A DNA stretch of 64,000 nucleotides from Streptomyces umbrinus (GTDB lineage: Bacteria > Actinomycetota > Actinomycetes > Streptomycetales > Streptomycetaceae): positions 5,952,001 through 6,016,000 of the forward strand of contig NZ_JAUSZI010000002.1 in assembly GCF_030817415.1 (NCBI RefSeq). The letters are read 5' to 3'. This document shows, piece by piece, positions 21,047 through 21,180 of the stretch (position 1 is the first letter of the stretch; the number at the start of each line of letters is the position of its first letter). The position numbers and the translations under genes are program-made. Under the pieces are notes generated by a model. It saw nothing but the letters and a program-made list of their open reading frames with translations. It had not been told where the DNA came from and made no database searches.

Positions 21047-21180
21047 CTCCCTACGCCGGCATTACCCGGTAACAGGTTCGGCGGTCGACGCAGCGATTTC
21101 CGTCCGGCGATGTTCCACGTGAAACATCGCGTCTACGGAGTTCAGCGCCCTCTCAGCCCGGTGCTCCGAGCTCCCGCGTG
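21047..21180 (-). promoter_or_regulatory. TPP riboswitch (THI element) of thiC
   Basis: Read on the minus strand, the leader has the conserved CTGAGA (21156-21151) in GGGCTGAGAGGG. The 3' element is CCGAACCTGTTACCGGGTAA followed by TGCCGGCGTAGGGAG at about 21082-21048. It begins at about 21180 with CGCGGGAGC. The GGGAG that ends the element is also the thiC ribosome binding site, so TPP binding should block translation. The region between the two conserved parts is enlarged by a hairpin that contains a parS-like sequence. Confidence 0.92.
21112..21125. promoter_or_regulatory. parS: parS-like site, one mismatch, inside TPP riboswitch
   Basis: GTTCCACGTGAAAC differs from the parS core by one base (T to C). 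It sits at the centre of a 24-bp inverted repeat (21107-21130) in the variable arm of the thiC riboswitch. In the RNA the changed base gives a G-U pair, so the hairpin is kept. Confidence 0.75.

Follow-up and report, generated by a model that had tools for sequence, protein, structure and literature searches.

The window (the whole stretch of 64,000 nucleotides analysed here) carries thiC on the reverse strand at 19191–21038 (615 aa; best model NCBIfam NF006763, 974.9 bits; TIGR00190, 693.3 bits). The gene is preceded, on the same strand, by a TPP riboswitch aptamer with a long P3 arm at 21031–21187 (RF00059, 41.8 bits, E 4.7e-7). The alignment covers the full model (positions 1–105), the P3 strands being separated by an insert of 53 nt, and by sequence and alignment the conserved CUGAGA, ACCUG and GCGUAGGGA letters are all present upstream of this thiamine gene. 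The conserved 5' half of the aptamer is marked by GCUGAGA at 21151–21157 (reverse strand; sequence and RF00059 alignment). An Rfam scan of the whole window at the gathering score returned no TPP riboswitch, because the score of the thiC leader falls under the RF00059 gathering threshold of 54.3 bits. All eight Streptomyces thiC leaders that were scored, the window's and those of seven relatives, lay below this threshold (37.7–51.1 bits over all eight), and the three with parS arms had the lowest RF00059 scores among them. The whole leader folded weakly better than its shuffles (z −1.43; 15 of 200 as good), and a scan of 20900–21500 for sigma-70-type promoters gave 0 sites.

Both the minimum free energy (MFE) and the centroid fold place a hairpin of 10 pairs with a 4-nt loop (ACGU) in the P3 arm, at 21107–21130 on the reverse strand, in agreement with an earlier note that had described an extra hairpin of about 24 nt at this place in the thiC riboswitch. 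For the P3 arm alone the fold surpassed those of shuffled sequences (z −2.44), 2 of 200 of which equalled it. At 21112–21125 (reverse strand) a mismatch scan located a parS core that reads GTTTCACGTGGAAC and differs from GTTTCACGTGAAAC by a single change; it lies inside the hairpin and in the leader, 74–87 nt upstream of the thiC start. The earlier note had also claimed that the hairpin contains a parS core with one mismatch and that this change becomes a G-U pair in the RNA; both statements were borne out, the core having a single change that forms a U-G pair on the RNA strand.

parS sites of the genome and the window

The 12.4 Mb genome contains 19 perfect parS cores, all within 5.907–6.127 Mb, and the arm core falls inside this span. 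Four of the seven one-change cores in the genome are the GTTTCACGTGGAAC variant, and all four lie within the same span, while GTTTCACATGAAAC, the other variant common in arms, has one copy in this genome outside the cluster, at 5.30 Mb. Within the window, 13 parS-like sites at ≤3 mismatches were found, compared to 1.2 expected in shuffles. Of 61 Streptomyces genomes, 55 contained the exact variant GTTTCACGTGGAAC and none its reversed control; GTTTCACATGAAAC was present in 14 of 61 (control, 0), with 8 of its 20 places being the thiC arms themselves. One genome (G010) held 25 copies of GTTTCACGTGGAAC, mostly within ∼200 kb of its thiC, where the other 60 genomes had 0–5, and parS usage in this genome may have shifted.

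The single change in the arm core corresponds, on one strand, to the N position of the 16-bp consensus TGTTNCACGTGAAACA given for parS in the accessible portion of PMC7022226, and the outer T and A of that consensus are both present at the arm core. For Pseudomonas, the accessible text of PMC10419367 names GTTCCAC and GTTTCAC as the two half-sites preferred by ParB. Since GTTCCAC, the half-site that carries the change in the arm core, fits TGTTNCACGTGAAACA and is a known ParB half-site, the one change is no argument against ParB binding. The S. coelicolor parS is printed as GTTTCACCTGAAAC, with C for the central G, in the available parts of PMC4852455 and PMC7022226. None of the parS sites of the present genome has this form, and for that reason we regard it as a printing matter. 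A list of S. coelicolor parS sites is reportedly given by Jakimowicz (2002), and one of the loci collected here (L177, titled S. violaceoruber) is presumably close to S. coelicolor.

A neighbouring parS at 28436–28449 (forward strand; GTTCCACGTGAAAC) has the same one-change core and was used as a control site, having no predicted RNA hairpin (fold z −0.11). It lies 7.1–8.3 kb from the arm and is kept, with mostly similar flanks, in 18 of the 20 genomes that carry a parS arm; of the remaining two, one has a perfect site and in the other the contig is cut. The variant at this site is therefore stable outside a riboswitch, and the idea that the one-change core is a defect was dropped, given that the neighbouring parS retains the same variant in those 18 genomes. 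The sites at 21112, 28436, 36590, 43755, 50369 and 57300 follow one another at a spacing of 6.6–8.2 kb, a figure that omits near-duplicates, the site at 31895 and an 11-kb step down to 9839. Similarly, in the relatives with an arm, the next parS upstream is 7.1–8.3 kb from the thiC arm where it is seen. Other features of the window include a Scr3920 sRNA at 27324–27448 (reverse strand; 152.3 bits), and a CCA tRNA nucleotidyltransferase and MurJ at the window's end.

The perfect parS at 36590–36603 (forward strand) sits at the middle of a perfect 44-bp palindrome (36575–36618) that lies between convergent ORFs (fold z −10.16). Across loci L063–L241 and the window, 15 of 168 perfect parS were the centres of perfect palindromes of 32–62 bp with differing arms, a proportion that is not a genus rate because many of these loci were fetched for holding parS. 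Three of the 15 came from other actinobacteria (Oerskovia, Arthrobacter and an Acidimicrobiales contig), and 131 of the 168 perfect sites extend by ≤2 pairs. This suggests that the hosting of parS in RNA-capable hairpins reaches beyond thiC, and that terminator-like hairpins may be among the hosts.

Distribution and history of the parS arm

The first sample was obtained by a search with leader DNA, which matched in 61 of 61 Streptomyces genomes, and these genomes were therefore not chosen by parS. The arm contained the core at 0–1 mismatches in 20 of them; in the other 41 the nearest 14-mer had ≥5 mismatches, and in none were there 2–4. The earlier note had proposed aligning thiC leaders across Streptomyces for co-conservation of the hairpin and the core, and had named free variation of the arm with no parS match as evidence against its reading. 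Co-conservation was found in part, in 20 of 61 genomes (0–1 changes) and not in 41 of 61; an arm varying without a parS match does occur, in those same 41 relatives, with no intermediates at 2–4 changes. The absence of parS from the arm in 41 of 61 genomes makes this a lineage-specific rather than a universal trait. One genome (G025) has a second copy of the leader that is without parS. Within 5 kb of the leader, 10 of the 41 genomes lacking the arm site had a parS at another place, and 0 of the 20 arm genomes had one outside the arm; some of the contigs are short.

Larger draws were searched using sequence patterns. Of 140 genomes searched with a pattern free of parS, 88 matched; this draw overlaps the first sample, many long arms are out of the pattern's reach, and the core was seen by eye in 25 of the 88 arms. 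A pattern demanding both leader and core matched 175 of 392 Streptomyces genomes (reversed control, 0 of 392). A wider draw with a looser pattern, which also catches other parS, gave 183 of 391 genomes, all of them Streptomyces, and no parS arm was found among 23 genomes drawn from other genera.

With the 61 genomes placed on a thiC tree, the parS-arm trait needs two changes and is distributed over one main lineage and scattered others. When 38 contig loci were added (99 rows; five further contig loci had too little thiC and were left out), four changes were needed, three of which are forced by well-supported branches. One clade of 54 rows, 35 of them chosen by core, has the parS arm throughout. 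As a single gene can mislead via recombination, we read these results as more than one gain or loss and not as a count.

DNA letters and RNA pairing across arms

A total of 62 unique parS arms were compared from 63 loci, namely 20 from the first sample and 43 among the matches listed by a contig scan with a loose pattern. The scan loci used are those with a recognisable TPP second half (42 Streptomyces and one titled Actinobacteria bacterium). Because the contig scan demanded core forms, only the 20 first-sample arms can speak to loss. Among the matches listed, the cores of the 62 arms were GTTTCACGTGGAAC (35), GTTTCACATGAAAC (18), perfect (7) and GTTCCACGTGAAAC (2), with no fifth form, although the contig-scan pattern allowed little beyond these four. 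The core lies 25 nt after GCUGAGA in 59 of the 62 arms, again among the matches listed.

In the short arms (n = 16 among the matches listed), parS pairs with itself as in the window, and 143 of 144 examined pairs form. A change that would break the hairpin (C opposite A) occurred in 0 of these 16 listed arms and the equivalent change leaving U-G in 10, and the letters of the hairpin loop were likewise kept among the matches listed, barring one purine exchange. In the longer arms (n = 46 among the matches listed), the MFE structure has no self-pairing of the core, and parS pairs instead with another strand of the arm.

The arms of 95 nt, 26 of them unique among the matches listed, allow the two strands to be compared. 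Here every one of the 26 cores stays within 0–1 mismatches, as against 1–5 for the partner block; nine of these 26 listed arms are from the first sample, and all nine have one mismatch in the core and 2–3 in the partner. There are two stem positions with variation in the core itself: in the 26 listed arms the column pair 36–62 holds A-U in 18, G-U in 3, G-C in 5 and A-C in 0, and the column pair 29–69 holds U-A in 18, U-G in 6, C-G in 2 and C-A in 0. There are 25 partner cells, among the matches listed, that differ from the commonest letter opposite their core base; pairing survives in 19 of them and is lost in 6. Broken pairs in the 26 listed arms are found at the column pair 34–64 in five, at the column pair 40–58 in two and at three other column pairs in one each. 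Over the whole helix, 98.1% of cells are paired among the matches listed, a value that 0 of 1000 shuffles reached (shuffle mean, 96.8%), with a margin that is small and inflated by the kinship of the rows. On a thiC tree of 25 rows among the matches listed, the core underwent 10 changes in 3 of 14 columns and the partner 26 in 8 of 14.

These alignments suggest constraint on the RNA arm as well as on the DNA site. The parS letters stay while the partner varies yet mostly keeps pairing, which is the signature of two constraints, and their apparent coexistence supports the idea of dual use. The suggestion in the earlier note that one sequence may have two jobs thus gains support as two probable constraints within the arm-bearing lineages, where the partner varies and pairing is mostly kept.

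Explanations of the arm site and comparison with known systems

We consider it likely, from the sequence comparisons, that the arm site is a working parS belonging to the chromosome's cluster and that the P3 arm of the thiC TPP riboswitch serves as its host; ParB binding, a role in segregation and normal TPP sensing at the thiC arm would be expected of such a site. The P3 arm would tolerate inserts able to pair, either internally or with another strand of that arm, and parS could have been parked there because the arm accepts pairing inserts and a palindrome is one. At the DNA level, ParB would load on the core, and at the RNA level the same letters would make one strand of the P3 arm. In short arms parS would be its own hairpin, while longer arms would rely for RNA pairing on a second strand that is often similar to parS, mostly decayed as a DNA site and still able to pair.

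Alternatively, the hairpin could be RNA structure only, with a likeness to parS that arose by chance or descent and has no function in DNA. Such a reading is consistent with the inserts of various lengths without parS held by the 41 other arms of the 61-genome sample, many with inverted repeats visible in the unfolded letters, and with letters being common to related species by descent. It is nevertheless very improbable in our estimation, since the parS letters hold at 0–1 changes while the RNA partner strand varies, the loop letters of the short hairpins are kept except for one purine exchange, the arm is located within the stretch that the parS cluster occupies, and no intermediate decay was seen among 61 genomes not chosen by parS. 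The lack of decaying copies in that sample also argues against the view of this parS copy as a passenger on its way to being lost after recombination between parS sites had spread it, as does the presence of the trait in all rows of the 54-row clade (again with 35 rows chosen by core). The four changes needed by the 99-row thiC tree, three of them forced, and the similar flanks at other parS (e.g. 27 of 27 nt elsewhere in G049) favor spread of this kind, which we nonetheless regard as improbable.

ParB loading or spreading from the arm might also hinder or time thiC transcription, or disturb folding of the riboswitch, making the site a regulatory parS. The location of the core in the leader, 74–87 nt upstream of the thiC start, is compatible with this, as are the extension of ParB up to 2.5–3 kb from parS in S. 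venezuelae (accessible text of PMC12511625) and the repression of promoters adjoining parS3 and parS4 in Pseudomonas announced in the title of PMC5521831. However, more than half of the sampled Streptomyces are without the arm site, and in Pseudomonas the alteration of 25 half-sites changed only two neighbouring genes, according to the available portion of PMC10419367. We find a regulatory parS unlikely, and favor a working parS of the chromosome's cluster.

Among the entries listed by literature searches there was no paper joining parS with thiC or its riboswitch, thiC is not mentioned in the accessible portions of PMC13245405 or PMC12511625, and the terms looked for in the accessible portion of PMC5815017 were likewise absent. 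The arrangement of a parS in the thiC riboswitch arm is new, while its parts are known. In the arm, nature seems to provide an RNA helix with one strand that must additionally serve as a DNA site for a protein and a second strand free of that demand, so that selection on DNA and selection on RNA can be told apart. The arm also places a likely segregation site within a transcribed metabolite sensor, where any clash or coupling between transcription and the loading of ParB is directly testable. More tentatively, and with some doubt, Streptomyces could as a rule set part of its centromere in structured RNA, with riboswitch arms and terminator-like hairpins hosting parS, selection acting on its letters separately as DNA and as RNA, and ParB occupancy possibly touching thiC expression. 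RNA elements would suit as hosts for parS because a ParB site, being palindromic, can fold into a hairpin once transcribed.

The arm site resembles the chromosomal parS of Streptomyces (ParABS) in its 14-bp core, its position within the parS cluster and the use of one-change forms elsewhere in that cluster, but differs in that this core sits in a riboswitch aptamer region and doubles as a strand of an RNA helix. With TPP riboswitches that have an extended P3 arm (THI element, RF00059), the leader shares the conserved halves, thiC downstream and a variable insert in P3, whereas the insert here is a DNA-binding-site motif whose letters are conserved besides the helix. The parS at the tip of terminator-like hairpins (36590 in the window, and other loci) are alike in that a parS tips an RNA-capable hairpin; unlike the thiC arm, these hairpins are intergenic, fully self-complementary and outside any ligand sensor.
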